This document shows positions 24,252 to 48,462 of a stretch of DNA of 64,000 nt, piece after piece. Under the pieces are notes generated by a model that ran no database searches, had not been told where the DNA came from, and worked only from the letters and a program-made list of their open reading frames with translations. Each line of letters begins with the position of its first letter. Position 1 is the first letter of the stretch. The stretch comes from Pseudomonas sp. HN11 (GTDB lineage Bacteria > Pseudomonadota > Gammaproteobacteria > Pseudomonadales > Pseudomonadaceae). The translations under genes and the position numbers were made by a program. Location: contig NZ_CP089985.1 of NCBI RefSeq assembly GCF_021390155.1, forward strand, positions 558,001-622,000. The letters run 5' to 3'.

Positions 24252-24331
24252 CGCCTTCGCGAGCAAGCCCGCTCCCACACTTGAATGTATTCGCAAATCA
24301 AAATGTGGGAGCGGGCTTGCTCGCGAAGGCG
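24252..24331. repeat. REPIN
   Basis: Left arm CGCCTTCGCGAGCAAGCCCG continues to CTCCCACACTTG, and the right arm is its complement (TGTGGGAGCGGGCTTGCTCG to GAAGGCG), with an AT-rich centre. Near-perfect REP palindrome pair. It lies just upstream of the putative toxin/immunity pair. Confidence 0.93.
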
Positions 24332-24369: not shown

Positions 24370-25290
24370 ATGGGTAACCCCCTGGCCGGCATCGGCATGG
24401 ACTCCAACCGCTCGCAGTTCATGGCGCGCCAGCGCATCGAAAGCCAGATCAACCTCCCGCGCCTGTTTGCGGCCATCGACGCCGATCCAGGTATCGTTGG
24501 CGCAGGCGTCGTATACATCGACGCCGACTTCAACGTCATTACCCTGCGCGAATTCAAGCCCATCTGCAGCATCAAGCCCAAGCGCATCATTTTGCGTGAA
24601 GCGCAGAAGTACATTGCGCCAACGCAGTTTGCTCAACATGTCGTGAGCAATCCTCGAGAGTCGCGACTGATTGGCGAAGCCGTGAATACCGGAATCTCCT
24701 GCTTGGGGGCGGTCATCAGTTGGGCTGCGATCGCCAGTGGAACCATTCTGGTGCCTTTCAGCGCTGGCGCCAGTTCCGTCATCGTTGTAGTGGGGTATGC
24801 GGCTGCCGGCGCGAGTACGCTTCAGTGCTTTAACGGCATTGCCCGAACAGCGCTGGAAGTCGCCAAACCTGAGGTCAAGGATTCGCTCGACAGTGAAGGC
24901 TGGTACCAGAATGCCTCCATCGTGCTGGACGCCGTATCACTGGCAGGCGTGGGCGCTTCGGCCTTGACGACGGTCAAGCTGGTCAGGGCCGCCAAAGCAT
25001 CGACGGGCAAGAGCCTGCGTGATGTGCTTCGCGGTTTGAATCGCCAGGAAAGAGCCAAGCTGACGAAAGAGCTGCTGAGCATCAACCATCCCAGCTTGAC
25101 CGCGAAGATGATCAAATTGAGGCAGGCGTCGGGCGAACTCACCAAGCGTTTCACCCCTACGCAGCTCAAGCACAGCACCACTACCCAGATAAAAGACGTC
25201 CTGGGCGCAAGCGTTGGGTTTGGCGGGAGTGCCTACTCCGGAAACGTCAACACCATCGCGATTGGACTCTACGAGGAGGTAAGCGAATGA
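24370..25290 (+). CDS. Hypothetical protein with central hydrophobic segments; candidate toxin/effector
   Basis: I do not recognise a family. The 306-residue protein begins MGNPLAGIGMDSNRSQFMARQ, has no signal peptide, a mixed N-terminal domain (about 1-95), then two or three strongly hydrophobic Gly/Ala-rich stretches (about 110-160, for example ISWAAIASGTILVPFSAGAS and VIVVVGYAAAGAS) and another apolar stretch near 185-205 (VLDAVSLAGVGASALTTV), followed by a basic helical C-terminus. This resembles membrane-inserting secreted toxins that carry embedded hydrophobic helices. It overlaps the next gene, a small membrane protein, by four bases. The pair is flanked by a REPIN and sits between conserved genes, which suggests an accessory insertion. 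Function by analogy only. Confidence 0.75.
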   Translation: MGNPLAGIGMDSNRSQFMARQRIESQINLPRLFAAIDADPGIVGAGVVYIDADFNVITLREFKPICSIKPKRIILREAQKYIAPTQFAQHVVSNPRESRLIGEAVNTGISCLGAVISWAAIASGTILVPFSAGASSVIVVVGYAAAGASTLQCFNGIARTALEVAKPEVKDSLDSEGWYQNASIVLDAVSLAGVGASALTTVKLVRAAKASTGKSLRDVLRGLNRQERAKLTKELLSINHPSLTAKMIKLRQASGELTKRFTPTQLKHSTTTQIKDVLGASVGFGGSAYSGNVNTIAIGLYEEVSE

Positions 25291-25736
25291 GCGAATTGAT
25301 GACGCTACGCGACTTTTTCAGGCAATACTTTCTGACGTTTATGGGCGGCGTATTTGCTGCGTGTTTTTCTTTGGCGTTGGCTGTGGCGCTGGCGTTCATC
25401 ACCTATTTTCGTGATGCGCCCATTGCTCAAGTGGGGCTCAAGATCATGTCTGCCGGGGCGCTGCTCATTCTGTTGACGGTCCATAGCAACTTTATGATTT
25501 TGCGGGGCCGACCCTCCTGGGTGTGGATAATGGTCGGCATCTACGTCGTCTGTCTATTGTTTGTCGTCCCAATGCTTCAGTACCAGCCTCATAAAGTTCT
25601 CTATGGGTTGGCGCTGTTATTCCCGTTCCTTGGATTGTTAATACTTAACAGCAAGGTTCAACGAGAGATGCGCCAGAAGCTGCATGAGATCCGCCACCTA
25701 CGCCAAGCCACGCTTGCCAGGCGCAAAACCGGCTAA
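25287..25736 (+). CDS. Small polytopic membrane protein; candidate immunity partner
   Basis: 149 residues with four predicted membrane segments (about 17-38, 47-67, 77-96, 101-120) and a basic C-terminal tail (REMRQKLHEIRHLRQATLARRKTG). No recognisable family. The ATG overlaps the upstream stop (ATGA), so its production is coupled to the preceding hydrophobic-core protein. Composition is visibly lower in GC than the neighbours (for example the stretch around 25540-25660). If the upstream protein is a membrane-targeting toxin, this is the natural immunity candidate; alternatively both form one membrane complex. Confidence 0.75.
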   Translation: MSELMTLRDFFRQYFLTFMGGVFAACFSLALAVALAFITYFRDAPIAQVGLKIMSAGALLILLTVHSNFMILRGRPSWVWIMVGIYVVCLLFVVPMLQYQPHKVLYGLALLFPFLGLLILNSKVQREMRQKLHEIRHLRQATLARRKTG

Positions 25737-25922
25737 TTGGGTAGATTCCCTACCCACCTTCACACCCGCGCCACATATGGGTGCGTCACTTGCACCAGAG
25801 CATCGCTGTCGGCGCGTTTTGGTGCTGTACTGCACCGGATCTTACGATAAAGCGCAATGACCGCCGCTCTGGCATAAGTCTTGCGCGCTTTGTTCCCATG
25901 CCCTGGCTCGCAGGAGGCCGCC

Positions 25923-28900
25923 GTGTCGATTCATGTCGCGTTGCACCACGTTACGCATTACCGCTACGACCGCGCTGTCGAACTCGGCCCACAGATCGTG
26001 CGGTTGCGCCCGGCGGCCCATAGCCGCACGCGGATTCTGTCCTACGCGCTGAAAGTGCTGCCTGAGCAACATTTCATCAACTGGCAGCAGGACCCCCAGG
26101 GCAATTACCTGGCGCGGTTGGTGTTCCCGGAAAAGACCGATGAACTGCGCATCGAGGTCGACCTGGTCGCCGAGATGGCGGTGTTCAATCCGTTCGACTT
26201 TTTCCTCGAGCCCTACGCCGAAAAAATCCCCTTCAACTACGCCGCCGATGAGCAACGCGAGCTGGCGCCGTACCTGGAAACCTTGCCGCTGACGCCGAGG
26301 TTTGCCGCGTACCTGGCCGGTATCGACCGCACGCCATTGCCGGCGGTGGATTTCCTGGTGGGTCTCAACCAGCGCCTGGCGGCCGATATCGGCTACCTGA
26401 TCCGCATGGAGCCGGGTGTGCAAACGCCGGAATTCACCTTGGAAAACGCTTCCGGCTCCTGCCGCGATTCGGCCTGGTTGCTGGTGCAATTACTGCGCAA
26501 TCTCGGTTTGGCGGCGCGGTTTGTGTCCGGCTACCTGATTCAACTCACCGCCGACGTCAAAGCCCTCGACGGCCCCTCCGGTACCGAAGTGGACTTCACC
26601 GACCTGCACGCCTGGTGCGAAGTGTATTTGCCTGGCGCCGGCTGGATCGGGCTGGACGCCACCTCCGGGTTGTTCGCCGGTGAAGGTCATATCCCGTTGG
26701 CGTGTAGTCCCGATCCATCATCTGCCGCACCCATCAGTGGGCTGGTGGAGCCCTGCGAGTGTGAATTCACCCACGAAATGTCGGTTGAGCGGATTTGGGA
26801 GGCACCACGGGTTACCAAGCCTTACACCGAAGAGCAATGGCTGGCGATCCAAGCTCTGGGGCGGCAGATCGATGGCGATTTACTCAAAGACGACGTACGC
26901 CTGACCATGGGCGGCGAGCCGACCTTCGTCTCCATCGATGATCCCGACGGTGCCGAATGGAATACCGCCGCGCTTGGCCCGGACAAGCGCCGGCTGTCCG
27001 CCGAGTTGTTCCAACGCATGCGTAAGCACTACGCGCCAAAGGGCCTGGTGCATTTCGGCCAGGGCAAGTGGTACCCCGGCGAGCAACTGCCGCGCTGGTC
27101 GCTCAACTGCTACTGGCGCCGCGACGGTGTGCCGATCTGGCACAACAGTGCATTGATCGCCGATGAGCAAGAGGACTATGGCGCGGATGGCGCCCTGGCC
27201 GGGCGTTTCCTGGCCAGCGTCGCTGAGCGCCTGAAACTGCCGGCACGCTTTGTGTTCCCGGCCTTTGAAGACAACTTCTACTACCTGTGGCGCGAAGGTG
27301 CGCTGCCGCAAAACGTCACCGCCCAAGACCCACGCCTGGGCGACGAACTGGAGCGCGAACGCCTGCGCAAAGTGTTCGCCCAGGGCCTGGATAAAATCAT
27401 CGGGCAAGTGCTGCCGCTGGCGCGCACGACGGCCAATGACCGCTGGCAAAGCGGGCGCTGGTACCTGCGTGACAACCATTGCCGCCTGGTGCCGGGGGAT
27501 TCGCCCCTGGGTTATCGTCTGCCACTGGCCTCGCAGCCTTGGGTGACGGCGGCCGAGTACCCGTTTGTGCACCCGACCGACCCTAATCAGGACCAGCCGG
27601 ATCTGCCGACCACCTCCCAACTGCAAAGCCACGGCGAACCTGCACCCAGCGACGAACGTGTGCCCAAGGTGGACGAGTCTGCCGACTGGCTGACCCGCAC
27701 CGCGCTGTGCGCCGAAGCGCGGGACGGGCGCCTCTACCTGTTCATGCCGCCCCTTGAGCGTGTCGAGGATTATTTGGAACTGGTGGCCGCCATCGAAGCC
27801 ACCGCCGAAGAACTGCATTGCCCGGTACTGCTCGAAGGCTATGAGCCTCCAGCGGATACGCGTCTGAGTAACTTGCGCGTCACGCCGGACCCTGGCGTGA
27901 TCGAGGTCAACGTGCAGCCCTCCGCCAGCTGGGACGAGTTGGTGGAACGCACCGAGTTCCTCTACGAAGAGGCCCGGCAAACCCGCCTGACCACTGAGAA
28001 ATTCATGATCGACGGGCGCCACACCGGCACCGGTGGTGGTAACCACTTTGTGCTCGGTGGTGCGACCCCCAAGGACTCGCCGTTCCTGCGTCGGCCGGAT
28101 TTGCTGCGCAGCCTGATCAGCTACTGGCACAACCATCCATCGTTGTCCTACCTGTTTTCCGGCCTGTTCATCGGCCCGACATCCCAGGCGCCACGGGTGG
28201 ACGAGGCACGCAACGATGCGTTGTACGAGCTGGAAATTGCCTTCGCGCAAATGCCCGAACCCGGTGAAGAATGCCCGCCATGGTTGGTGGACCGCCTGCT
28301 GCGCAACCTGCTGATCGACGTGACCGGCAATACCCATCGCGCCGAATTCTGCATCGACAAACTCTACTCGCCCGACGGCGCCACCGGCCGCCTGGGCCTG
28401 CTGGAGTTGCGCGCATTTGAAATGCCGCCCCATGCGCGCATGAGCCTGACCCAGCAATTGCTGTTGCGGGCGCTGGTCGCGCGTTTCTGGCGGGAACCCT
28501 ACGCGCCGCCGAAGCTGGCGCGCTGGGGCACCGAGTTGCACGACCGTTTCCTGTTACCGCATTTCATCGAACAGGACTTTGCCGACGTGATCGTCGAACT
28601 CAACGCCGCCGGTTATCCGCTGCGCGCCGAGTGGTTTGCGGCGCACCTCGAATTCCGCTTCCCCAAGATCGGTGACTACGCCGTCAGTGGTATCGAACTG
28701 GAACTGCGCCAGGCCCTGGAACCCTGGCATGTACTGGGCGAAGAGGGCGCGGTGGGCGGCACGGTGCGTTATGTGGATTCGTCCCTTGAGCGCCTGCAAG
28801 TCAAATTGACCGGGCTGCCACCGCAGCGCTATCTGCTGACCTGCAATGGCATTCCGGTGCCGCTGCAGCCGACAGGACGGGTGGGTGAGTTCGTCGCCGG

Positions 28901-29213
28901 TGTGCGTTACCGCGCCTGGCAACCGGCCAACTGCCTGCAACCGACCATCGCGGTGCATGCGCCGTTGGTGTTCGACTTGCTGGATACCTGGATGCAACGC
29001 TCGCTGGGCGGCTGCCAATACCATGTTGCCCATCCGGGCGGGCGCAATTACGACAGCTTGCCGGTGAATGCCAACGAGGCCGAGAGCCGGCGCATGGCAC
29101 GGTTTTTCCGGTTGGGGCACAGCCCTGGGAAGCTTCCCGTGCCAGCAGTCGTCATCAACGATGAGTTGCCGATGACCTTGGACTTGCGGCGTTTCCCCAA
29201 TAAAAATGATTAA
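25923..29213 (+). CDS. Transglutaminase-like / DUF2126 fusion protein
   Basis: Large protein of 1,096 residues. The N-terminus (SIHVALHHVTHYRYDRAVELGPQIVRLRP) is the bacterial transglutaminase N-terminal region. A transglutaminase core follows, with candidate catalytic Cys in GSCRDSAWLLVQLLRNLG (about residue 180), His in DLHAWCEVYLPGAGW (about 229) and Asp in GLDATSGL. From about residue 300 to the end is DUF2126 (MGGEPTFVSIDD near its start), of unknown activity. The start is GTG 25923 with AGGAGG just upstream; the open frame extends 14 codons further. First gene of a three-gene set with an ATP-grasp/alpha-E protein and a second transglutaminase, so it probably belongs to a peptide or protein amide-bond modifying system. 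Substrate unknown; no signal peptide. Confidence 0.9.
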   Translation: MSIHVALHHVTHYRYDRAVELGPQIVRLRPAAHSRTRILSYALKVLPEQHFINWQQDPQGNYLARLVFPEKTDELRIEVDLVAEMAVFNPFDFFLEPYAEKIPFNYAADEQRELAPYLETLPLTPRFAAYLAGIDRTPLPAVDFLVGLNQRLAADIGYLIRMEPGVQTPEFTLENASGSCRDSAWLLVQLLRNLGLAARFVSGYLIQLTADVKALDGPSGTEVDFTDLHAWCEVYLPGAGWIGLDATSGLFAGEGHIPLACSPDPSSAAPISGLVEPCECEFTHEMSVERIWEAPRVTKPYTEEQWLAIQALGRQIDGDLLKDDVRLTMGGEPTFVSIDDPDGAEWNTAALGPDKRRLSAELFQRMRKHYAPKGLVHFGQGKWYPGEQLPRWSLNCYWRRDGVPIWHNSALIADEQEDYGADGALAGRFLASVAERLKLPARFVFPAFEDNFYYLWREGALPQNVTAQDPRLGDELERERLRKVFAQGLDKIIGQVLPLARTTANDRWQSGRWYLRDNHCRLVPGDSPLGYRLPLASQPWVTAAEYPFVHPTDPNQDQPDLPTTSQLQSHGEPAPSDERVPKVDESADWLTRTALCAEARDGRLYLFMPPLERVEDYLELVAAIEATAEELHCPVLLEGYEPPADTRLSNLRVTPDPGVIEVNVQPSASWDELVERTEFLYEEARQTRLTTEKFMIDGRHTGTGGGNHFVLGGATPKDSPFLRRPDLLRSLISYWHNHPSLSYLFSGLFIGPTSQAPRVDEARNDALYELEIAFAQMPEPGEECPPWLVDRLLRNLLIDVTGNTHRAEFCIDKLYSPDGATGRLGLLELRAFEMPPHARMSLTQQLLLRALVARFWREPYAPPKLARWGTELHDRFLLPHFIEQDFADVIVELNAAGYPLRAEWFAAHLEFRFPKIGDYAVSGIELELRQALEPWHVLGEEGAVGGTVRYVDSSLERLQVKLTGLPPQRYLLTCNGIPVPLQPTGRVGEFVAGVRYRAWQPANCLQPTIAVHAPLVFDLLDTWMQRSLGGCQYHVAHPGGRNYDSLPVNANEAESRRMARFFRLGHSPGKLPVPAVVINDELPMTLDLRRFPNKND

Positions 29214-29224
29214 ACGCCGATCCT

Positions 29225-29250
29225 AATGTGGGCGCGGGCTTGCTCTCACA
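29225..29250. repeat. Degenerate single REP sequence
   Basis: AATGTGGGCGCGGGCTTGCT matches one arm of the REP core with a G-to-C type change, followed by CTCACAAGG rather than CGCGAAGG. No inverted partner arm is present. It lies in the 96-base gap inside the transglutaminase operon. Confidence 0.55.
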
Positions 29251-29309
29251 AGGGGATTTGCAGTGTTTGTTAGGTTAATCTGAGCCCCCTTGCCTCTGCC
29301 GAGCGTTCC

Positions 29310-31796
29310 ATGTCCGACTTGCTCGACCGTTACCCGCTGACCGCGGGCACTTATCACGAATTGCTGGACGACAGCGGCGCGGTACGTGCTCATTGGCGGC
29401 GACTGCTCGATCACCTGCAACGCAGCACGCCTGCGCAGTTGGCCCAGCGCCAGGCATTGCTGACCCGGCAGATCCAGGAAAACGGCGTGACTTACAACGT
29501 CTACGCCGACCCCAAGGGCGCTGACCGCCCTTGGGAGCTGGACTTGCTGCCCCATGTGCTGGCGGCTGATGAGTGGCAGCACCTGTCGGCCGGTATCGCC
29601 CAGCGTGCACGCTTGCTCAATGCCGTGCTGGCGGATCTGTACGGTCCGCAGCGCCTGATCAAGGAAGGCTTGCTGCCGGCTGAGCTGGTATTCGGGCACA
29701 ACAATTTCCTGTGGCCGTGCCAGGGCATCCACCCGCCGGACGGTGCGTTCCTGCACCTGTATGCCGTGGACCTGGCGCGTACGCCGGATGGCCGCTGGTG
29801 GGTCACCGCCGACCGTACCCAGGCGCCGTCCGGTGCCGGTTATGCGCTGGAAAACCGCACCATCGTATCCCGCGCCTTCCCGGATCTTTACCGTGACCTG
29901 CAGGTTCAGCACCTCACCGGTTTCTTCCGCACCTTGCAGGAAACCCTGGCCCGTCAGGCGCCCAGTGATGACCAGCCACCGCTGATCGTGCTGCTCACGC
30001 CGGGGCGCTTCAACGAAAGCTATTTCGAACATCTCTACCTCGCCCGTCAGCTCGGTTACCCGCTGGTAGAAGGTGGCGACCTCACCGTGCGTGACAGCAC
30101 CGTGTTCCTGAAAACCTTAAGCGGTCTGCGCCGGGTGCACGCGATCATGCGTCGCCTCGATGATGATTTCTGCGACCCGCTGGAGCTGCGCACCGACTCG
30201 GCCCTCGGCGTGCCCGGCCTGCTCGATGCGGTGCGCCAGGGCAATGTACTGGTGGCCAATGCCCTGGGCAGCGGCGTACTGGAATCCCCCGGGTTGCTTG
30301 GCTTTCTGCCGAAGATCAACGAATTCCTGTTCGGTGAAGAACTGATCCTGCCATCCATTGCCACCTGGTGGTGCGGTGAAGCGCCGGTACTGGCCGAAGC
30401 GCTGGAGAAGCTGCCGGAGTTGCTGATCAAACCCGCATTTGCGTCGCAGAGTTTCGCCCCGGTATTCGGCCGTGACCTGAACGACGAACAACGCCAGGCC
30501 CTGGCCGAACGCATGCGCGCGCGGCCTTACGCCTATGTCGCCCAGGAGTTGGCGCAACTGTCCCAGGCGCCGGTGTGGCACATCGTGGATGACCACCTGC
30601 AACACCGCGCTATCGGCATGCGCGTGTACGCCGTGGCGAGCGATGAAGGTTATCGCGTGTTACCGGGCGGACTCACTCGAGTGGCCGCCGAGGCCGACGC
30701 TGAAGTGGTGTCGATGCAACGTGGCGGCGCCAGCAAGGACACCTGGGTGCTCGGCGAACGCGCCGCCGCTGGCGAACACTGGCGTGCGCAACGGGCGATT
30801 GGCGCCCATGACCTGGTGCGCCGCGATCCCTATCTGCCGTCCCGCGTAGTGGAGAATCTGTATTGGTTCGGTCGTTACTGTGAACGCTGCGATGACAGTG
30901 CGCGTTGGTTGCGTATCGTGCTCGCGCGTTATGTGGACGGTGATGATCCCTTGGCCTTGCAGGCTGCCGTCGAGCTGGGAGAAAACTTGCGCCTGCTGCC
31001 GGAGGAGGGGGAATTGCCCGAGCGTCTGCTCGCCGCCTTGCTCGGTGATGACTGGCCGTCGAGCCTGCGCGCCAACTTGCAACGCTTGCAGTGGGCGGCG
31101 TCTCAGGTGCGCGGCAAACTGTCCCGAGAAAACTGGCAGGCCCTGGTGGAACTGCAACGCGAAGCCATGGAGCTGGAAAGCGAGTCACCGGATTTTGGCG
31201 AGTTGCTGGATTTCCTCAATCGCTTGGTGATGTCTCTGGCGGCGCTGTCCGGGTTTGCCCTGGACGACATGACCCGCGATGAAGGCTGGCGCTTTTTGAT
31301 GATGGGCCGGCGCATCGAGCGTCTGCAATTTCTGAGCAGCAGTCTCGCGGCGTTCCTGCGCGGCGTGGCGGTGTTCGATCAGGCCGGGTTGGAGTGGTTG
31401 CTGGAATTGGGCAACAGCAGCATCACCTACCGTTCGCGTTACCTGGCGGTGCCGCAGTTGATCCCGGTGCTCGACCTGTTGTTGTTGGATGAGCAGAACC
31501 CCCATGCGGTGTTGTTCCAGCTCAAACTGGTGAGCCGCACGCTGCGGCGTCTCAACGATGATTTTGGTGTGCCGCGGGAAACTGGCCTTGGCCTGTTGGT
31601 GGAGCGCCTGGCGCGTTTCGACCTGGGTTGCCTGGAGAACCCATTGTTCGGCGAATCCAGCGTGCGTGCCGCGCTGGACGGCCTGGCCGACCTGCTGCAG
31701 GCGGTGGCCGATGAGAGTGGGCAAGTGTCGGATCGCCTGGCCTTGCGCCATTTCGCCCATGTGGATGATGTCAGCCAGCAAACGGTGTCGGTGTGA
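29310..31796 (+). CDS. Circularly permuted ATP-grasp / alpha-E domain fusion protein
   Basis: 828-residue fusion. The N-terminal two thirds (about 1-475) match the circularly permuted ATP-grasp type 2 family (DUF404/DUF407; segments YGPQRLIKEGLLPAELVFGH, PGRFNESYFEHLYLARQLGYPLVEGGDL, VANALGSGVLESPGL), predicted to be a carboxylate-amine ligase. The C-terminal third (about 510-828) is an alpha-E domain (DUF403; ENLYWFGRYCERCDDSARWLR, MMGRRIERLQFLSSSL). The two are separate proteins in many bacteria. The stop overlaps the next gene (TGATG). Substrate unknown; co-occurrence with transglutaminases suggests formation and processing of an isopeptide or short peptide. Confidence 0.92.
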   Translation: MSDLLDRYPLTAGTYHELLDDSGAVRAHWRRLLDHLQRSTPAQLAQRQALLTRQIQENGVTYNVYADPKGADRPWELDLLPHVLAADEWQHLSAGIAQRARLLNAVLADLYGPQRLIKEGLLPAELVFGHNNFLWPCQGIHPPDGAFLHLYAVDLARTPDGRWWVTADRTQAPSGAGYALENRTIVSRAFPDLYRDLQVQHLTGFFRTLQETLARQAPSDDQPPLIVLLTPGRFNESYFEHLYLARQLGYPLVEGGDLTVRDSTVFLKTLSGLRRVHAIMRRLDDDFCDPLELRTDSALGVPGLLDAVRQGNVLVANALGSGVLESPGLLGFLPKINEFLFGEELILPSIATWWCGEAPVLAEALEKLPELLIKPAFASQSFAPVFGRDLNDEQRQALAERMRARPYAYVAQELAQLSQAPVWHIVDDHLQHRAIGMRVYAVASDEGYRVLPGGLTRVAAEADAEVVSMQRGGASKDTWVLGERAAAGEHWRAQRAIGAHDLVRRDPYLPSRVVENLYWFGRYCERCDDSARWLRIVLARYVDGDDPLALQAAVELGENLRLLPEEGELPERLLAALLGDDWPSSLRANLQRLQWAASQVRGKLSRENWQALVELQREAMELESESPDFGELLDFLNRLVMSLAALSGFALDDMTRDEGWRFLMMGRRIERLQFLSSSLAAFLRGVAVFDQAGLEWLLELGNSSITYRSRYLAVPQLIPVLDLLLLDEQNPHAVLFQLKLVSRTLRRLNDDFGVPRETGLGLLVERLARFDLGCLENPLFGESSVRAALDGLADLLQAVADESGQVSDRLALRHFAHVDDVSQQTVSV

Positions 31797-32686
31797 TGAG
31801 TGCGCGCTACCAGATTTTCCACGATACCCATTACCATTACGACAGCCCGGTGTCCCTGGCCCAGCAGTTGGCACACCTTTGGCCACGGCCGTGCGCCTGG
31901 CAGCGCTGCAGCTTGCAGCAACTGGCTATCAGCCCGGAGCCTACGTCGCGCCGCGATGAGCTGGACGTGTTCGGCAACCCCATCACTCGCCTGGCATTCG
32001 AACGGCCCCATGATGAATTGCGGGTGAACGCCGGGCTGACCGTGGAAGTGCTGGCGCGGCCCGCGCTGGATTTCCAGCAATCACCCGCTTGGGACCCTAC
32101 CCGCGGTAGCCTGACCTACAGCGGCCAGGCCATGTCTCCTGAGCTGATTGAAGCTTGCCGCTACCGTTTCGAATCGCCCTATGTGCACCTGAAAAAAACC
32201 TTCGTCGAATTCTCCGAAAGCTGCTTTCCCCCTGGTAAACCGCTGTTGCTGGGCGTGCAGGCGCTGATGGAAAAGATTTTCAGCGAATTCACCTTCGACG
32301 CCGAAGCGACTCAGGTCGCCACGCCGCTGGTCGAGGTGTTGGAGCGCCGACGCGGTGTGTGCCAGGACTTCGCCCACCTGATGCTCGCCTGCCTGCGCTC
32401 GCGAGGCTTGGCGGCGCGCTATATCAGCGGTTACCTGCTCACCCAGCCACCGCCCGGCCAACCCCGGCTGATCGGCGCCGATGCGTCCCACGCGTGGGTC
32501 TCGGTGTATTGCCCGGTTTCAGGCTGGGTGGATTTCGATCCGACGAACAATGTGCAGCCGGCACTGGAGCACATCACCCTGGCCTGGGGCCGGGATTTTT
32601 CCGATGTGTCGCCGTTGCGAGGGGTGATTCTGGGGGGAGGGAGCCATGACCCTGAGGTGCGGGTGACGGTGATGCCGTTGGAATAG
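31796..32686 (+). CDS. Transglutaminase family protein
   Basis: 296-residue protein with the bacterial transglutaminase N-terminal region (YQIFHDTHYHYDSPVSLAQQLAHLWPRP) and a transglutaminase core: candidate Cys in RRGVCQDFAHLMLACLRSRGL, His in ASHAWVSVYCPVSGW and Asp in DFDPTNN. Closest in layout to COG1305 proteins. The ATG overlaps the ATP-grasp stop; an in-frame GTG lies directly before it. It could act as an amidase/protease of the same fold rather than a cross-linking enzyme. Last gene of the operon. Confidence 0.93.
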   Translation: MSARYQIFHDTHYHYDSPVSLAQQLAHLWPRPCAWQRCSLQQLAISPEPTSRRDELDVFGNPITRLAFERPHDELRVNAGLTVEVLARPALDFQQSPAWDPTRGSLTYSGQAMSPELIEACRYRFESPYVHLKKTFVEFSESCFPPGKPLLLGVQALMEKIFSEFTFDAEATQVATPLVEVLERRRGVCQDFAHLMLACLRSRGLAARYISGYLLTQPPPGQPRLIGADASHAWVSVYCPVSGWVDFDPTNNVQPALEHITLAWGRDFSDVSPLRGVILGGGSHDPEVRVTVMPLE

Positions 32687-33710: not shown

Positions 33711-33792
33711 TTCGCGAGCAAGCCCGCTCCCACACTTGACCGTGTTCCCAGGTTGGAAAACGGTCAAGTGTGGGAGCGGGCTTGCTCGCGAA
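33711..33792. repeat. REPIN
   Basis: TTCGCGAGCAAGCCCGCTCC...CACACTTGACCG and its complement CGGTCAAGTGTGGGAGCGGG...CTCGCGAA form a long, nearly perfect inverted pair around a short centre. It lies between the azurin gene and the convergent nadE. Confidence 0.94.
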
Positions 33793-35997: not shown

Positions 35998-36071
35998 CGC
36001 CTTCGCGAGCAAGCCCGCTCCCACCTTTGGAATGCATTTCAAGTGTGGGAGCGGGCTTGCTCGCGAAGGCG
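35998..36071. repeat. REPIN, directly abutted by an IS3-family element
   Basis: CGCCTTCGCGAGCAAGCCCG...CCACCTTTGG and its inverted partner CAAGTGTGGGAGCGGGCTTG...CGCGAAGGCG form a complete REPIN. The IS target duplication (ATT) begins at 36072, one base after the REPIN ends. The remaining bases from 35877 are the pncB upstream region. Confidence 0.94.
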
Positions 36072-36107: not shown

Positions 36108-36917
36108 TTAGGCTACAGCGGACTTGACCCTATAGGCTACAGGGCTCAGTCCGCCAAGCTTCACTTTGATTCGTTTATAGTTGTAGTAATGGATGTACTC
36201 ATCCAACCCAGCTTGCAACTGTTCCACGTTGTCGAAGTTTTTTCGGTAGTAAAATTCTGACTTCAGTGTGCCGAAAAAACTCTCCATTGTGGCGTTGTCA
36301 TAACAGTTTCCTCTGCGTGACATGCTTTGCTCCAGCCCCGCCTTTTCCAGTCGCTCTCGGTATTTTGAGTGTCGGTAATGCCAGCCCTGATCCGAGTGCA
36401 GCATAGGCTTAGCCCCCTCAGGTAAGCGTTGAAGAGCTTTTTCCAACATCTCGCCCACCAAAGCATATTGGGGGCGCATGGCCATCTGATAGGCCACAAT
36501 CTCGCCGTTGTACAAATCTAAAACTGGAGATAAGTACATCTTCTTGCCAGCCACTTTGAACTCGGTGACATCAGTTACCCATTTCTGATTCGGTTTCTCA
36601 GCCTCGAATTGACGAGCCAGTGTATTGGGCGATACATCTCCCATCGGTCCGTTATACGACCGGTATTTCTTTGGTCGCACGGTGCATTTCAGACCCAGCT
36701 CCCCCATCAGCCGACGTACCGTTTTCCCGTTGATCTGTGGTCGTTCTTTACGAAGCTCTAAAGTCATACGACGATAACCAAGACAGCCCATATGCTCATT
36801 CTGGAGGTTCTGGATAGCTGCTTTGACCGAGGCAAACCGGTCTGCAACGCCCATCGCTTTGAGTTGGTAGTAGTACGTGCTTCGCGCAAGGCTCACCAGC
36901 TTGAGCAACTCACTCAA
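36108..36917 (-). CDS. IS3-family transposase OrfB (made as OrfAB fusion by -1 frameshift)
   Basis: DDE transposase catalytic part. Shows the HTH_21-like segment GCLGYRRMTLELRKE, then the catalytic triad: Asp in WVTDVTEFK, Asp in LHSDQGWHY and Glu in NATMESFFGTLKSEF. The listed start is a TTG; the frame is open upstream through VSELKQEFSLSELLK into the orfA end, so the functional enzyme is probably the OrfAB fusion. The slippery run is G-AAA-AAG at 36953-36959 (read leftward). Confidence 0.94.
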   Translation of the reverse strand: MSELLKLVSLARSTYYYQLKAMGVADRFASVKAAIQNLQNEHMGCLGYRRMTLELRKERPQINGKTVRRLMGELGLKCTVRPKKYRSYNGPMGDVSPNTLARQFEAEKPNQKWVTDVTEFKVAGKKMYLSPVLDLYNGEIVAYQMAMRPQYALVGEMLEKALQRLPEGAKPMLHSDQGWHYRHSKYRERLEKAGLEQSMSRRGNCYDNATMESFFGTLKSEFYYRKNFDNVEQLQAGLDEYIHYYNYKRIKVKLGGLSPVAYRVKSAVA

Positions 36918-36943
36918 GGAAAACTCTTGCTTAAGCTCACTGA

Positions 36944-37483
36944 CTAATCGGGCTTTTTCTTCTGTTCTTTCTCCCGCCTCATCACTGCCTCGCCTAACTC
37001 CCCAAGCTTTTTTAGGTAGGCGTTCTCCATGCGCAGATACTTGAGCTCATCGAGCAACGTCTTGTGTTCGGGCTCAGGGGCAGTGATTGGGGCAGAAGAT
37101 TTACGTGGTTTAATGGGTGGCTTAGACATAACGGTACACAGTCCTTTTTTCCCTGACTCCAGGGCTTCAATGCCGCCACTGTAATACTGCTGCTGCCATC
37201 TGCCCACCTGAGTGGAGTTACCCAAATTGAAAAGCGCCGCTGCGCGGCGTAAGGAAAGGGAGTCACGCCACATGCGTTGTAGGACGGAGAACTTGAACAA
37301 GGCGGAGTAACGTTGGCCGGTGGTGCTCAAACTGGCCTCACCGTGCAATCGATACGCCTCGACCCAGCGACGAAGCAATGTAGGGTCCATTTGAAATTGA
37401 GCGGCGATACGGCGAAAGCCTCGGCCTTTCTCAAGGAAAGTGGTAATAGCGGATAGCTTGAACTGCGTCGTGTACTTACTCAT
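36944..37483 (-). CDS. IS3-family OrfA (DNA-binding subunit)
   Basis: 179 residues with two helix-turn-helix units (LSAITTFLEKGRGFRRIAAQ and LSLRRAAALFNLGNSTQVGR) and a C-terminal coiled coil (LLDELKYLRMENAYLKKLGE). The ATG at 37483 begins MSKYTTQFKLS; the longer open frame starting outside the IS is ignored. Its last codons contain the frameshift run AAG AAA AAG before the stop, and orfB is in the -1 frame. Confidence 0.93.
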   Translation of the reverse strand: MSKYTTQFKLSAITTFLEKGRGFRRIAAQFQMDPTLLRRWVEAYRLHGEASLSTTGQRYSALFKFSVLQRMWRDSLSLRRAAALFNLGNSTQVGRWQQQYYSGGIEALESGKKGLCTVMSKPPIKPRKSSAPITAPEPEHKTLLDELKYLRMENAYLKKLGELGEAVMRREKEQKKKPD

Positions 37484-37548
37484 GAAAAATACGCCCCAAG
37501 AATTGGATGGGTGTCCAACTTCTGGGGCGCACTTCAATTCTCCAGGCG

Positions 37549-38439
37549 CTAAAGCACCTGCTCCATCATCCACTTCACAAATTCACGCACCTTGGGCACC
37601 TCCGCCGAATGTTCGGGGTAGGCCAGGTAATACGCATCCTGGCTCGGCATTGCATGCTGCCAGGGAATGACCAGCTTGCCTTCGGCCAACTCTTCTTCCA
37701 CCAGAAAGCGCGGCAGCAACGCTACGCCACAGCCCACCTGCGCGGCCCGAATGCACATATAGAAGGTGTCGAAGCGTGGCCCGTGATAGCTGTGCTCGGT
37801 GTGGAAGCCCTGGCTGGCAAACCAGTCGTGCCAGCCCTGGGGACGCGAAGCGTTTTGCAGCAGCACCAGGTCGCTCAGTTGCGTGGGATCGGTGAACGGC
37901 TGGGCCTGCAGGCTTTCTGGCGCGCACACCGGCACCAACGCTTCGCTGAACAATTTGAGGCTTTCGGTGCCGGGGCGTGAACCCTGGCCGAAGTAGAAGG
38001 CCATGTCGGCCTTGCCTTGCAGCAGTTCGTCCGGCTCCTGCTCGTTGCACAGATCCAAGTGGATCTGCGGATGGCGCAGCCGCCAGCCCTTGAGGCGCGG
38101 CACCAGCCAGCGCGCGCCGAAGGTGTAGGGCGTGGACACCCGCAGCACTTCGGTTTCGCCGCCATAGGAGCGCAGATAATGGGTGGACATTTCCACTTGC
38201 GTGAGGATCTTGCGCACTTCCACCAGGTACAAATCGCCCGCCGGGGTCATCTGCAAGCGCCGGCGCACGCGGCGGAACAGCAGGTGTTGCAGCAATTCTT
38301 CCAACTGCGCCACCTGCTTGCTCACTGCGCTCTGCGTGAGGTTCAGCTCCTCGGCAGCGCGGGTGAAGCTCAGGTGGCGGGTGGCGGCTTCGAAGCACTG
38401 CAGGGCAGTGATCGAGGGCAAATGTCTTTTGTTCAGCAC
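37549..38439 (-). CDS. LysR-family transcriptional regulator, divergent from amaB
   Basis: 296-residue regulator with an N-terminal winged helix (LPSITALQCFEAATRHLSFT, then RAAEELNLTQSAVSKQVAQLEE) and a C-terminal effector-binding domain. The start is GTG 38439 (MLNKRHLP), preceded by AGAGG; the open frame continues 559 codons upstream only because it runs antisense through amaB. It is divergent from amaB across 153 bases, so it probably controls the pipecolate/aminoadipate genes; in P. putida a LysR regulator occupies the same place. An IS ends 12 bases downstream of its stop, outside the gene. Confidence 0.92.
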   Translation of the reverse strand: MLNKRHLPSITALQCFEAATRHLSFTRAAEELNLTQSAVSKQVAQLEELLQHLLFRRVRRRLQMTPAGDLYLVEVRKILTQVEMSTHYLRSYGGETEVLRVSTPYTFGARWLVPRLKGWRLRHPQIHLDLCNEQEPDELLQGKADMAFYFGQGSRPGTESLKLFSEALVPVCAPESLQAQPFTDPTQLSDLVLLQNASRPQGWHDWFASQGFHTEHSYHGPRFDTFYMCIRAAQVGCGVALLPRFLVEEELAEGKLVIPWQHAMPSQDAYYLAYPEHSAEVPKVREFVKWMMEQVL

Positions 38440-41751: not shown

Positions 41752-41768
41752 ATGGCACGCGCCTTGCT
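41752..41768 (+). promoter_or_regulatory. Sigma-54 promoter of the branched-chain amino-acid transport operon
   Basis: TGGCACG-CGCC-TTGCT agrees with the consensus TGGCACG-N4-TTGCW at every fixed position. The GG (41754-41755) and GC (41766-41767) are 12 bases apart, as required. Predicted start near 41779, about 59 bases before the braC ATG. Confidence 0.85.
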
Positions 41769-43088: not shown

Positions 43089-44003
43089 ATGGATGGTATT
43101 TTCCTGCAGCAACTGGTCAACGGCCTGACCCTCGGGTCGGTCTATGGCCTGATCGCCATCGGCTACACAATGGTCTATGGCATCATTGGCATGATCAACT
43201 TCGCCCACGGCGAGGTTTATATGATTTCCGCTTACCTCGCGGCGATCAGTCTGGCACTGCTGGCTTACTTCGGCATCGAATCCTTCCCGCTGCTCATTCT
43301 CGGCACCTTGATCTTCACCGTGGTCGTCACCGGCGTGTACGGTTGGGTCATCGAGCGTGTCGCCTACAAACCGCTGCGCAACTCCACGCGACTGGCACCG
43401 CTGATCAGCGCCATCGGTATCTCGCTGATCCTGCAGAACTACGCGCAAATCGCCCAGGGTGCCAAGCAACAAGGCATTCCCACCCTGCTGGCCGGGGCGT
43501 GGCGTGTCGACATCGGCAGCGGCTTCGTTCAGTTGACGTACACCAAAGTCTTCATTCTGGTCGCCGCTTTCGCCGGCATGGCGTTGCTCACTTACGTCAT
43601 CAAATACACCAAGCTCGGCCGCATGTGCCGCGCGACCCAGCAAGACCGCAAGATGGCGTCGATCCTCGGCATCAACACCGACCGGGTGATCTCCTACGTA
43701 TTCGTCATCGGCGCCGCCATGGCTGCACTGGCCGGCGTGCTCATCACCCTCAACTACGGCACTTTCGACTTCTATGCCGGCTTCATCATCGGCATCAAGG
43801 CGTTTACCGCAGCGGTGCTCGGCGGCATCGGCTCCCTGCCTGGAGCGATGCTGGGTGGGATCATTCTCGGTATCTCCGAGTCGCTGTTCTCAGGGTTGAT
43901 CAACTCTGATTACAAAGACGTGTTCAGTTTCTCCCTGCTGGTGGTGATTCTGATTTTCCGTCCCCAGGGCCTGCTTGGTCGCCCACTCGTGGCGAAGGTG
44001 TAA
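43089..44003 (+). CDS. braD: Branched-chain amino-acid ABC transporter permease LivH/BraD
   Basis: 304-residue inner-membrane permease with about eight membrane segments, starting MDGIFLQQLVNGLTLGSVYGL, which is the family start. Contains INFAHGEVYMISAYLA and the EAA-like region GRMCRATQQDRKMASILGIN. It precedes braE by two bases. Confidence 0.95.
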   Translation: MDGIFLQQLVNGLTLGSVYGLIAIGYTMVYGIIGMINFAHGEVYMISAYLAAISLALLAYFGIESFPLLILGTLIFTVVVTGVYGWVIERVAYKPLRNSTRLAPLISAIGISLILQNYAQIAQGAKQQGIPTLLAGAWRVDIGSGFVQLTYTKVFILVAAFAGMALLTYVIKYTKLGRMCRATQQDRKMASILGINTDRVISYVFVIGAAMAALAGVLITLNYGTFDFYAGFIIGIKAFTAAVLGGIGSLPGAMLGGIILGISESLFSGLINSDYKDVFSFSLLVVILIFRPQGLLGRPLVAKV

Positions 44004-44005
44004 AC

Positions 44006-45283
44006 ATGTCTGCTGCCAAACCTATCGATATCAAGAAAAGTGTGGTCGATACAGTCCTCGCCGGGCTGATTTCCCTGGTCGTGTTCGGCCCCATCGTCGG
44101 CGTGGTCCTCGACGGCTACAGCTTCAACCTGGAACCGGCCCGCGTGGGCCTGCTGGTGGCCATCGTGATGGTCGGCCGCTTTGCCATCAGCCTGTTCCTG
44201 CAAACCCCCAGGGGCCTGAAGATTCTGCAGGGCTTCGAGAGCAGTGGCTCTGGCGTGCATGTACTGGCGCCGGACTACAAGTCGCGGCTGCGCTGGATCA
44301 TCCCGGCACTGATCGTGATCGCCATCGTGTTTCCGATTTTCGCCAACAAATACCTGCTCACCGTGGTGATACTCGGCCTGATCTATGTATTGCTCGGCCT
44401 GGGCCTCAATATCGTGGTCGGCCTGGCGGGGCTGCTCGACCTGGGTTACGTGGCGTTCTACGCCATTGGCGCCTACGGCCTGGCATTGGGTTATCAATAC
44501 CTCGGCCTGGGTTTCTGGACGGTGCTGCCACTGGCGGCCATCGCGGCGGCGCTGGCGGGGTGCATACTCGGGTTCCCAGTGTTGCGAATGCATGGCGACT
44601 ATTTGGCCATCGTGACCCTGGGCTTTGGTGAAATCATCCGTCTGGTGCTCAATAACTGGCTGTCATTTACCGGCGGTCCAAACGGCATGCCGGTGCCATC
44701 GCCGACCTTCCTCGGCCTTGAGTTCGGCAAGCGTGCGAAGGATGGCGGGATTCCCTTCCATGAATTCTTCGGCATCGACTACAACCCCAATATCAAATTC
44801 CTGTTCATCTACATCGTGCTGTTCCTGGTGGTGCTGGCCGTGCTGTACATCAAGCATCGTCTGACCCGCATGCCGGTCGGCCGTGCCTGGGAAGCCCTGC
44901 GCGAAGATGAAATCGCCTGCCGTTCCATGGGCCTGAACCACGTGCTGGTCAAGCTCTCGGCATTCACCATCGGGGCATCGACTGCCGGCTTGGCCGGGGT
45001 GTTCTTTGCCAGTTATCAGGGCTTCGTCAACCCGTCGTCGTTCACCTTCTTCGAGTCGGCGCTGATCCTGGCCATCGTGGTACTGGGCGGCATGGGCTCG
45101 ACGGTAGGTGTGGTAATTGCGGCATTCGTATTGACCGTTGCGCCTGAACTGCTGCGCAGCTTCTCCGAATACCGCGTGCTGCTGTTTGGTGTGTTGATGG
45201 TGGTGATGATGATCTGGCGACCGCGCGGCTTGATCCGGATCAGCCGCACCGGCGTGACGCCACGCAAGGGGGTAGCGCCATGA
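44006..45283 (+). CDS. braE: Branched-chain amino-acid ABC transporter permease LivM/BraE
   Basis: 425-residue inner-membrane permease with an N-terminal extension, GLGLNIVVGLAGLLDLGYVAFYAIGAY as family core, and the EAA-like loop GRAWEALREDEIACRSMGLN. It overlaps braF by four bases (ATGA). Confidence 0.95.
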   Translation: MSAAKPIDIKKSVVDTVLAGLISLVVFGPIVGVVLDGYSFNLEPARVGLLVAIVMVGRFAISLFLQTPRGLKILQGFESSGSGVHVLAPDYKSRLRWIIPALIVIAIVFPIFANKYLLTVVILGLIYVLLGLGLNIVVGLAGLLDLGYVAFYAIGAYGLALGYQYLGLGFWTVLPLAAIAAALAGCILGFPVLRMHGDYLAIVTLGFGEIIRLVLNNWLSFTGGPNGMPVPSPTFLGLEFGKRAKDGGIPFHEFFGIDYNPNIKFLFIYIVLFLVVLAVLYIKHRLTRMPVGRAWEALREDEIACRSMGLNHVLVKLSAFTIGASTAGLAGVFFASYQGFVNPSSFTFFESALILAIVVLGGMGSTVGVVIAAFVLTVAPELLRSFSEYRVLLFGVLMVVMMIWRPRGLIRISRTGVTPRKGVAP

Positions 45284-46155
45284 GCAAGGAAGTCGTGCTC
45301 TCCGTGGAACATTTGATGATGCACTTTGGTGGCATCAAGGCCTTGAGCGATGTGAGCCTCAAGGTCGAACGCAACTCGATCTTCGCGCTGATCGGCCCCA
45401 ACGGCGCCGGCAAGACCACGGTGTTCAACTGCCTCACCGGCTTCTACAAAGCCAGCGGCGGCAAGATCCAGCTCAACATTCGCGGCAAACAAACAGACGT
45501 AATCCAGCTGCTCGGCGAACGTTTCCAGCCCACCGACTTCGTGTCGCCCAAAAGCTTCTTCAGCCGGGTGTTCTACAAGATGTTCGGCGGCACCCACTTG
45601 GTGAACCGCGCTGGCTTGGCGCGGACCTTCCAGAACATTCGCCTGTTCAAGGAAATGTCGGTGGTGGAAAACCTGCTGGTGGCCCAGCACATGTGGGTCA
45701 ACCGCAACATGCTCGCGGGCATCCTCAATACCAAGGCCTACCGCAAGGCTGAAAGCGACGCCCTCGACCACGCCTTCTACTGGCTGGAAGTGGTGGACCT
45801 GGTGGACTGCGCCAACCGCCTGGCCGGTGAACTCTCCTACGGCCAGCAGCGCCGTCTGGAAATCGCCCGTGCCATGTGCACCCGGCCGCAGATCATCTGC
45901 CTGGACGAACCCGCAGCGGGCCTCAATCCCCAGGAAACCGAAGCCCTCAGCGCGATGATTCGCCTGCTGCGCGACGAACACGACCTGACGGTGGTGCTGA
46001 TCGAACACGACATGGGCATGGTGATGAGTATTTCCGACCACATCGTGGTGCTTGACCATGGCAACGTGATCGCCGAGGGCGGGCCAGACGCGATCCGCAA
46101 CGACCCAAAAGTGATTGCCGCCTACCTGGGCGCCGATGAAGAGGAGTTGGTATGA
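45280..46155 (+). CDS. braF: Branched-chain amino-acid ABC transporter ATPase LivG/BraF
   Basis: 291-residue ATP-binding subunit with Walker A GPNGAGKTT (about 38-46), signature LSYGQQRRLEIARAM, Walker B IICLDEPAAGLNP and switch His in IEHDMGMV. It overlaps both neighbours by four bases, so the whole set is translationally coupled. Confidence 0.96.
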   Translation: MSKEVVLSVEHLMMHFGGIKALSDVSLKVERNSIFALIGPNGAGKTTVFNCLTGFYKASGGKIQLNIRGKQTDVIQLLGERFQPTDFVSPKSFFSRVFYKMFGGTHLVNRAGLARTFQNIRLFKEMSVVENLLVAQHMWVNRNMLAGILNTKAYRKAESDALDHAFYWLEVVDLVDCANRLAGELSYGQQRRLEIARAMCTRPQIICLDEPAAGLNPQETEALSAMIRLLRDEHDLTVVLIEHDMGMVMSISDHIVVLDHGNVIAEGGPDAIRNDPKVIAAYLGADEEELV

Positions 46156-46868
46156 GTGCACCTATCCTCGAAATGAAGGACCTGGACGTGTATTACGGTC
46201 CGATTCAGGCCCTGAAAAAAGTCTCGCTGCACATCAACGAAGGCGAAACCGTCAGCCTGATCGGCTCCAATGGCGCGGGTAAATCCACGCTGCTGATGTC
46301 GATCTTCGGCCAGCCTCGGGCGGAGTCGGGGCAGATCCTCTATAACGGCGTCGACATTACCCACAAGTCTTCGCACTACATCGCATCCAACGGTATTGCG
46401 CAGTCGCCGGAAGGGCGCCGGGTGTTCCCCGACATGACCGTCGAGGAAAACTTGCTGATGGGCACCATCCCCATTGGCGACAAGTATGCCTTTGATGACA
46501 TGCAGCGCATGTTCGAGCTGTTTCCACGGCTCAAGGAGCGACGTAACCAGCGCGCCATGACCATGTCCGGCGGCGAGCAGCAAATGCTCGCCATCGCCCG
46601 CGCTTTGATGAGCCGCCCCAAGCTGTTGCTGCTGGACGAGCCAAGCCTGGGCCTGGCGCCGATTGTGGTGAAGCAGATCTTCTCGACCCTGCGCGAGCTG
46701 GCCTCAACCGGCATGACCATTTTCCTGGTGGAGCAGAACGCCAACCATGCGCTGCGCCTGTCGGACCGCGCGTATGTGATGGTCAATGGCGAGATTCGCC
46801 TGACGGGCACCGGTAAGGAATTGCTGGTGAATGAGGAAGTGCGCAACGCCTATCTGGGCGGGCATTAA
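46152..46868 (+). CDS. braG: Branched-chain amino-acid ABC transporter ATPase LivF/BraG
   Basis: 238-residue ATP-binding subunit: Walker A GSNGAGKST, signature MSGGEQQMLAIARALMS, Walker B LLLLDEPSLGLAP, and VEQNANHALRLSDRAYVM. Last gene of the bra operon; a hairpin lies 25 bases after the stop. Confidence 0.96.
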   Translation: MSAPILEMKDLDVYYGPIQALKKVSLHINEGETVSLIGSNGAGKSTLLMSIFGQPRAESGQILYNGVDITHKSSHYIASNGIAQSPEGRRVFPDMTVEENLLMGTIPIGDKYAFDDMQRMFELFPRLKERRNQRAMTMSGGEQQMLAIARALMSRPKLLLLDEPSLGLAPIVVKQIFSTLRELASTGMTIFLVEQNANHALRLSDRAYVMVNGEIRLTGTGKELLVNEEVRNAYLGGH

Positions 46869-48369: not shown

Positions 48370-48462
48370 CGCCTGCTTCGCGAGCAAGCCCGCTCCCACA
48401 TTCGACCGCATTCATATGTTGGAACTCGGTCAAGTGTGGGAGCGGGCTTGCTCGCGATGGCG
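48370..48462. repeat. REPIN
   Basis: GCTTCGCGAGCAAGCCCGCT...CCCACATTCGACCG and inverted CGGTCAAGTGTGGGAGCGGG...CTTGCTCGCGATGGCG. It lies between the SDR gene and the CDF transporter gene. Confidence 0.93.

Follow-up and report, generated by a model that had tools for sequence, protein, structure and literature searches.

The 64,000-nucleotide window analyzed here (positions 558001–622000 of the single 6.27 Mb contig of Pseudomonas sp. HN11) contains an operon whose 3 products combine transglutaminase, DUF2126, ATP-grasp, and alpha-E domains, and the question raised by this locus is whether its ATP-grasp protein can itself be a ligase. An earlier note, made from the letters of the window, had proposed that it is. 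We designate the transglutaminase-DUF2126 protein P1, the ATP-grasp/alpha-E fusion P2, and the second transglutaminase P3. Sequence comparison revealed that the P2 family lacks metal ligands which are retained by 2 unlinked, unfused ATP-grasp/alpha-E pairs of the same genome. Judged from sequence, we consider it reasonably probable, at somewhat better than even, that P2 is a pseudo-ligase whose active partners are encoded in trans. The features of the operon are as follows.

25923–29213, forward strand: P1, 1096 amino acids, GTG start; Pfam match; 80 named relatives were kept.
P1 domains, forward strand (Pfam): transglutaminase, approximately residues 1–275; DUF2126 putative amidoligase, residues 276–1089.
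26460–26657, forward strand: P1 catalytic triad candidates C180 (26460–26462), H229 (26607–26609), and D245 (26655–26657), each kept in 80/80 relatives.
29310–31796, forward strand: P2, 828 amino acids; circularly permuted ATP-grasp domain, approximately residues 81–459, probably inactive (motif loss), and alpha-E domain, residues 509–815 (Pfam).
29808–29816, forward strand: P2 codons A167 to R169, the sites of the metal-binding Glu and Asn in unfused relatives.
31796–32686, forward strand: P3, 296 amino acids, ATG start, stand-alone transglutaminase-like protein (Pfam).

Metal site of the P2 ATP-grasp domain

In Pfam, P2 matches CP_ATPgrasp_2 (2.4e-157) and Alpha-E (4.6e-64) within a single polypeptide, as the earlier note had described. 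We aligned 77 fused proteins, namely that of the window and 76 relatives (2 of which are cut), with 31 unfused ATP-grasps; of the latter, 28 came from the same loci, 2 from the HN11 genome, and 1 from an Anbu operon of genome G338. Comparison between the fused and unfused proteins revealed that (i) the unfused motif VLEDNLRTPSG, with Glu and Asn in 31/31, reads VTADRTQAPSG in P2 of the window; (ii) none of the 77 fused proteins has Glu at the Glu position (41 A, 24 S, 8 G, 2 R, and 2 N) or Asn at the Asn position (74 R, 2 H, and 1 Q); (iii) an Arg that is present in 31/31 unfused proteins is replaced by Gln in 65/77 fused proteins; (iv) the GGYG loop, kept in 31/31 unfused proteins, is varied in the fused proteins, with no glycine loop in P2, and the Lys preceding this loop is found in 56/77 fused versus 31/31 unfused proteins; and (v) the first Asp (D154 in P2) is kept in 77/77 fused proteins.

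The structure 3n6x, a putative glutathionylspermidine synthase and the only solved relative found, aligns with the P2-family profile (positions 4–473, 3.6e-133) but differs from it in having E-D-N where the P2 family has lost its residues and in keeping the glycine loop; its chain of 474 residues stops after the ATP-grasp part. By motif and spacing, as seen by eye, the corresponding residues of E. coli GspS are D318, E330, and N332, which we take to bind magnesium. In trypanothione synthetase (TryS), which is homologous to GspS, Asp330, Glu344, and Asn346 hold 2 Mg ions, according to the relevant part of a modelling paper (PMC3581523). No alignment was found by hhalign between the single E. 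coli GspS sequence and either the P2 or the unfused profile. Of the features of a catalytic GspS/3n6x-type ATP-grasp (Asp plus E-x-N ligands and a glycine-rich loop), P2 keeps only D154; by sequence, the 2 ATP-grasps encoded elsewhere in HN11 have all of them, as do 31/31 unfused proteins.

The fused copies are also less conserved. In the 27 loci that hold both a fused and an unfused copy, the mean pairwise identity of the ATP-grasp is 0.55 for the fused and 0.70 for the unfused copies, and that of the alpha-E domain is 0.38 and 0.51, respectively; in the same loci it is 0.68 for DUF2126, 0.73 for the P1 transglutaminase domain, and 0.49 for P3. Judged from the alignment, P2 is probably, and most simply, a pseudo-ligase. 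The proposal that the P2 ATP-grasp acts as the ligase is not supported: the E-x-N ligands, which are A167 and R169 in P2, are absent from all 77 fused proteins; missing metal-binding residues were what the earlier note itself had named as speaking against its proposal, and at the sequence level they are missing. In the open-licence literature, we found no report that fused ATP-grasps as a group have lost the metal site, although Iyer et al. 2009 may include one, and nothing on an inactive ATP-grasp.

Intact ATP-grasp/alpha-E pairs, Anbu, and gene order

Three Alpha-E matches occur in the HN11 genome, one of which is P2. The others belong to 2 unlinked pairs that lay outside the view of the earlier note, because only the window had been seen. 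One match (C1:4757471) lies in L009, an operon of ATP-grasp, alpha-E, and transglutaminase genes; the other (C1:3298288) lies in L010 (L010 3877–6239), an ATP-grasp/alpha-E pair with no transglutaminase or Anbu gene beside it. Both ATP-grasps keep the metal motif, and the L010 copy is 87% identical to the L009 copy. In a tree of unfused ATP-grasps, both HN11 copies group with a Pseudomonas Anbu-operon copy, and the tree does not indicate which of them is the partner of the triplet P1-P2-P3. Of the loci of the 80 relatives, 28 have an unfused ATP-grasp in the flanking DNA fetched with the triplet, and in 11 of these 28 the genes run exactly ATP-grasp, alpha-E, P1, P2, P3 on the same strand; none is present in the flanks of the Pseudomonas-type loci, which number 20 (“gamma proteobacterium L18” and 19 named Pseudomonas).

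The presence of DUF2126 is accompanied by that of an unfused-type ATP-grasp. DUF2126 was matched in 84/299 phylum genomes sampled and 108/149 genomes of the genus, a few of these matches being fragments. In the phylum set, and with kinship ignored, the L009 ATP-grasp was matched in 84/84 DUF2126-positive versus 72/215 DUF2126-negative genomes, with a best E of 4.8e-145 or lower in all 84. For 77 of these 84, the listed matches show the unfused status directly (open frame of at most 616 amino acids); the match in genome G207 sits in a 1368-amino-acid frame, and in the 6 genomes outside the matches listed the unfused status is read from the E-value alone. Fused copies score at most about 360 bits, well below the unfused-type matches in those 6 genomes. 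In the genus set, where the counts for genomes outside the listed matches were derived by subtraction, at least 2 Alpha-E matches were present in 107/108 DUF2126-positive genomes, the exception being G383; of the 41 negative genomes, 7 had 2 matches, 12 had 1, and 22 had none. In G383 (C3:463363–464263), DUF2126 occurs only in fragments, and there is no Alpha-E match. In G340 (C25:108570–110105), the DUF2126 match skips model positions 80–385 within an 809-amino-acid open frame.

Anbu, a proteasome-like NTN peptidase of related gene sets, is absent from HN11. The Anbu protein of G338, used as a query, gave no match anywhere in the genome, including the window, and the single PF00227 protein of the genome, presumably HslV, is encoded outside the window; the statement of the earlier note that the window has no Anbu gene held, and the genome-wide search that it had called for extended this absence to the whole of HN11. 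Anbu was present in 17/149 genus genomes (7/108 DUF2126-positive and 10/41 negative) and in 101/299 phylum genomes, 100 of which have an ATP-grasp match. It was not found in 34/84 DUF2126-positive phylum genomes and is therefore not a constant part of the system. The picture is that of a core formed by the ATP-grasp/alpha-E pair, with Anbu and the triplet as 2 optional modules. Of a full Anbu operon, L009 holds the ATP-grasp, alpha-E, and transglutaminase genes only: in the stretch L009 2649–4463 its transglutaminase gene is directly followed by the next gene, and in G338 (L145 4442–6885) Anbu sits between what look like the same 2 genes, the gene that follows encoding in both cases the same cytochrome-like protein on the opposite strand, as read from the translations.

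The triplet itself is kept together. Relatives of P1 are common in named genomes (at least 585 confirmed among at least 593 pattern matches), and the best 80 form the comparison set; among the matches listed, the closest named relatives are from Pseudomonas, with at most 98% identity. The order P1-P2-P3 on one strand is found in 69 of the 80 loci, with direct adjacency not constant. Six of the other 11 loci are cut by the contig or locus end (L079, L081, L091, L103, L121, and L132), L115 has only 2.6 kb downstream, L084 and L123 have P1 alone despite approximately 10 kb downstream, L128 has no P3, and L120 is rearranged. Judged from gene order, the set is conserved far beyond chance, and the independent conservation of the 3 genes, which the earlier note had named as an argument against its operon, was not seen.

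Pfam and the open reading frame (ORF) coordinates agree with the 3 genes and domains that had been described from the letters alone. P1 matches Bact_transglu_N (3e-26) and Transglut_core (4.4e-15), and its DUF2126 match spans all 826 model positions (E = 0, 1352.5 bits); P3 matches Bact_transglu_N and Transglut_core. None of P1, P2, and P3 has an NCBIfam match at E up to 0.001. The TGATG overlap noted between the last 2 genes is present in the sequence, one base being common to the P2 stop and the P3 start, and no terminator-like site was found in the 96-bp gap between P1 and P2.

Promoter and probable nitrogen control

Upstream of P1, the following features were identified.

25817–25828, forward strand: conserved TTTTGGTGCTGT upstream of the promoter, the most informative 12-mer of the 80 bp preceding the −24 element (0.85 bits versus a mean of 0.51, 21 sequences).
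25870–25884, forward strand: sigma-54-type −24/−12 promoter, TGGCATAAGTCTTGC, TGGC-N7-TTGC, 38 bases before the P1 start.
25911–25917, forward strand: Shine-Dalgarno sequence CAGGAGG of P1, read from the sequence and kept in the 8 upstream sequences compared.

TGGC-N7-TTGC is a form of the sigma-54 −24/−12 consensus, and promoters of this type often serve in nitrogen starvation. The candidate P1 promoter has GG-N10-GC with a TGGC/TTGC core upstream of the gene. The pattern, which was first seen by eye in the window, so that the window and its close relatives are no independent test of it, occurs in the 350 bp before P1 in 39/80 relatives versus 0.52 expected from shuffles. It is present in 20/20 Pseudomonas-type loci and 19/60 others (0.42 expected), in 3/80 of the same regions on the opposite strand, and in 0/80 of the 350-bp regions inside the gene. 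The 7 spacer positions, which were not used for anchoring, average 1.76 bits versus 0.51 in the 80 bp upstream (21 sequences). A stricter search for TGGCACN5TTGCW with one mismatch missed the P1 site, and the 2 sites found in a scan for sigma-70 promoters are close to the 1.5 expected by chance. The conserved TTTTGGTGCTGT is a candidate activator-binding half-site.

A similar site, with the first base of the pattern relaxed, is found in 14/31 regions upstream of unfused ATP-grasp genes versus 0.7 expected, where the gene starts are alignment starts and some sites lie very near or far. Upstream of L009 are TGGCACGGGCCTTGC and one NtrC-like GCACCAGGACGGTGC. Given the sigma-54-type promoter, the operon is probably under the control of nitrogen or a related stress, a reading to which published work on related genes may be compared. 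A Burkholderia cenocepacia cluster of DUF404/407, DUF403, and 2 transglutaminase-like genes, one of them large, is sigma54-NtrC dependent, as stated in part of PMC5491218; the large gene would, from its size and order, be a P1 relative. Genes of the P. putida Anbu operon PP_2685-2688 rise in nitrogen limitation according to excerpts of PMC8050072 and PMC7801951, although PP_2685 hardly rises in the wild type (PMC7801951), and these domains follow those of urea metabolism in one set of networks from marine metagenomes (PMC3597751, in part). We found no report in the open-licence literature that the DUF2126 triplet of Pseudomonas has a conserved promoter of the sigma-54 type.

Elsewhere in the window, an exact sigma-54 consensus, TGGCACGCGCCTTGCT, is present at 41753–41768, shortly upstream of an ORF (ATG at 41838) that is followed by genes for branched-chain amino acid ATP-binding cassette (ABC) transporters (43089–46865). 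Near-matches of this kind number 4 in the window, approximately the chance number (4.79).

Proposed mechanism, known systems, and neighboring features

We propose that the operon belongs, as one module, to the amide-bond system predicted for circularly permuted ATP-grasp, alpha-E, transglutaminase, and DUF2126 domains, in which Anbu would not be needed, and that it is transcribed from the sigma-54-type promoter. Having lost its metal site and glycine loop, P2 would, with its alpha-E domain, most likely be a non-catalytic partner or a substrate platform. ATP-dependent amide or peptide bond formation would be carried out by the unlinked, unfused ATP-grasp/alpha-E pairs and perhaps also by the DUF2126 domain of P1. 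This domain, which Pfam labels a putative amidoligase, a label that the earlier note had not used, is likely, on the basis of prior work, to be a ligase; no papers on DUF2126 were found in the open-licence literature. The transglutaminase-like domains of P1 (N-terminal) and P3 would transfer or hydrolyze the amide or isopeptide bonds made. Their Cys/His/Asp candidates, pointed out from the letters of the window, are conserved: those of P1 in 80/80 relatives and those of P3 (C189, H232, and D248) in 74/75 P3-like ORFs, so that both proteins have, by sequence, the intact triad expected of transglutaminase-like enzymes. No obvious signal peptides were seen by eye in P1–P3. More tentatively, and with appreciably less confidence than in the reading of P2 as a pseudo-ligase with partners in trans, P2, the trans-encoded ATP-grasp/alpha-E proteins, and P1 may form a heteromeric, Anbu-free amide-ligating and transamidating machine that is induced by nitrogen starvation and tags proteins reversibly or stores nitrogen in peptide bonds, the fusion having arisen from a duplicated active pair. 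If the pseudo-ligase proposal is true, P2 alone would be inactive, the unlinked pairs would be needed for activity, and sigma-54/nitrogen control would define the relevant condition.

Several observations weigh against this reading. The loss of the metal site in P2 is read from an alignment, and D154, R282, D289, and E240 are kept in 77/77 fused proteins and R157 in 76, so that some ligand binding may persist. Low identity is no proof of inactivity, because P3 keeps its triad at 0.49. The co-occurrence counts take no account of kinship, and Anbu and DUF2126 are associated over the 299 genomes (50/84 versus 51/215, p = 1e-8), an association that vanishes within the ATP-grasp-positive genomes (50/84 with and 50/72 without DUF2126, p = 0.24). 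The NtrC consensus GCACY-N5-RGTGC was looked for upstream of P1 and seen neither in the window nor in the 20 Pseudomonas-type loci, and P. putida PP_2686-2688 rise equally in an rpoN mutant, as reported in part of PMC7801951, which speaks against strict sigma-54 control of PP_2685-2688. Comparison of DUF2126 with a GCS2 profile by hhalign gave 2 weak matches that were not significant, with probabilities of 0.8% and 1.3%. These fall on PGVIEVN and GRLGLLELRAFEMPP, which are conserved E-x-N and E-x-R motifs, and only 1/291 column shuffles scored as high, a control that rests on the top score and in which a 15-residue diagonal window excluded the real pair (diagonals 16 apart by our reckoning). 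Nothing was found by hhalign between the P1 profile and the single E. coli YbdK and GshA sequences.

We weighed the pseudo-ligase reading against 3 others. In the model of the earlier note, P2 is an active amidoligase attaching an amino group to a carrier, and the product is then transferred or hydrolyzed by the transglutaminases. The strong family match in Pfam and the many ATP-grasp positions retained in P2 fit this model, as does the release of phosphate from ATP by the ATP-grasp encoded in the Anbu operon of Yersinia bercovieri (PMC6376114, in part); with the E-x-N ligands absent from 77/77 fused proteins, the glycine loop degraded, and the fused copy less conserved than the unfused one in the same loci, we regard it as very unlikely. 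The same substitutions could instead mark a repurposed site, in which the Arg that has replaced Asn binds, independently of magnesium, an anionic substrate or nucleotide, for another chemistry or as a regulatory sensor. The replacement is itself conserved (R in 74/77), and close by, where the unfused proteins have Ser, every fused protein has Gly (G177 in P2). Decay is the better fit, however, to the highly variable loop and to a Glu position that accepts A, S, G, R, or N; we consider repurposing unlikely.

A third possibility dispenses with synthesis: P1 and P3 would be cysteine amidases or peptidases freeing the nitrogen of amides or peptides, and DUF2126 and P2 would serve substrate recognition only. 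Enzymes of the transglutaminase fold can hydrolyze, both triads are intact, and the sigma-54-type promoter suits nitrogen scavenging. A synthetic step is suggested, however, by the match of the unfused ATP-grasp in every DUF2126-positive phylum genome, with its motif intact in the 31 copies examined, and by the amidoligase label of DUF2126; a purely hydrolytic system seems quite improbable to us.

Iyer et al. are said to have predicted in 2009 a peptide-synthesis/tagging system comprising a circularly permuted ATP-grasp, a glutamine synthetase (GS)-like ligase, alpha-E, transglutaminase, and Anbu. Their comparative genomics, as described in parts of PMC5666114 and PMC6376114, predicted the amidoligase/transglutaminase set, and the HN11 operon belongs to it, as had been suggested from the window, with the Pfam domains in one cluster and a conserved order; the domain set is the same, Anbu excepted. 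HN11 differs in being Anbu-free genome-wide, in having no metal ligands in the ATP-grasp of the operon, and in having its intact pairs unlinked. The Anbu operons of P. putida (PP_2685-2688) and Y. bercovieri share related ATP-grasp, alpha-E, and transglutaminase families, and the nitrogen-limitation induction reported there (PMC8050072 and PMC7801951, in part) is a further likeness; by contrast, as these operons are described in the source excerpts, they have no DUF2126, and their ATP-grasp and alpha-E are separate proteins. The P. aeruginosa Rlo and RimK/RimB systems also pair an ATP-grasp protein with a counteracting enzyme, and Rlo has a transglutaminase-type domain, but according to part of PMC12239564 they use a RimK-like ATP-grasp, retropepsin-like proteases, and an inactive membrane transglutaminase domain; Pfam found no RimK-like ATP-grasp, retropepsin-like protease, or membrane transglutaminase domain in P1–P3. 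The kind of system was thus already predicted in 2009 and its genes are common; the metal-site loss and the promoter of the DUF2126 triplet may be new. We know of no substrate for the Anbu/DUF2126/ATP-grasp systems, common as they are, and the present data turn this old open question into a testable one.

Neighboring features of the window include repetitive extragenic palindromic (REP) elements, one of which lies within the operon.

29228–29245, forward strand: single REP-type element in the P1-P2 gap, GTGGGCGCGGGCTTGCTC, with 1 mismatch to the REP sequence of the window.

The REP sequence, GTGGGAGCGGGCTTGCTC, occurs in 4 inverted pairs resembling REPINs (24261–24322, 33716–33787, 36007–36062, and 48382–48453); together with the one-mismatch copy at 29228, the 8 exact copies give 9 matches in the window versus 0.14 expected. 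Just upstream of P1, the protein encoded at 24370–25290 matches NCBIfam Ssp4, a type VI secretion system (T6SS) effector family (3.3e-114), and a small ORF overlapping this gene (25287–25736), with hydrophobic stretches seen by eye, could encode an immunity protein. At 36108–37573, 2 minus-strand ORFs resemble an IS3-type transposase pair, as read from their translation.

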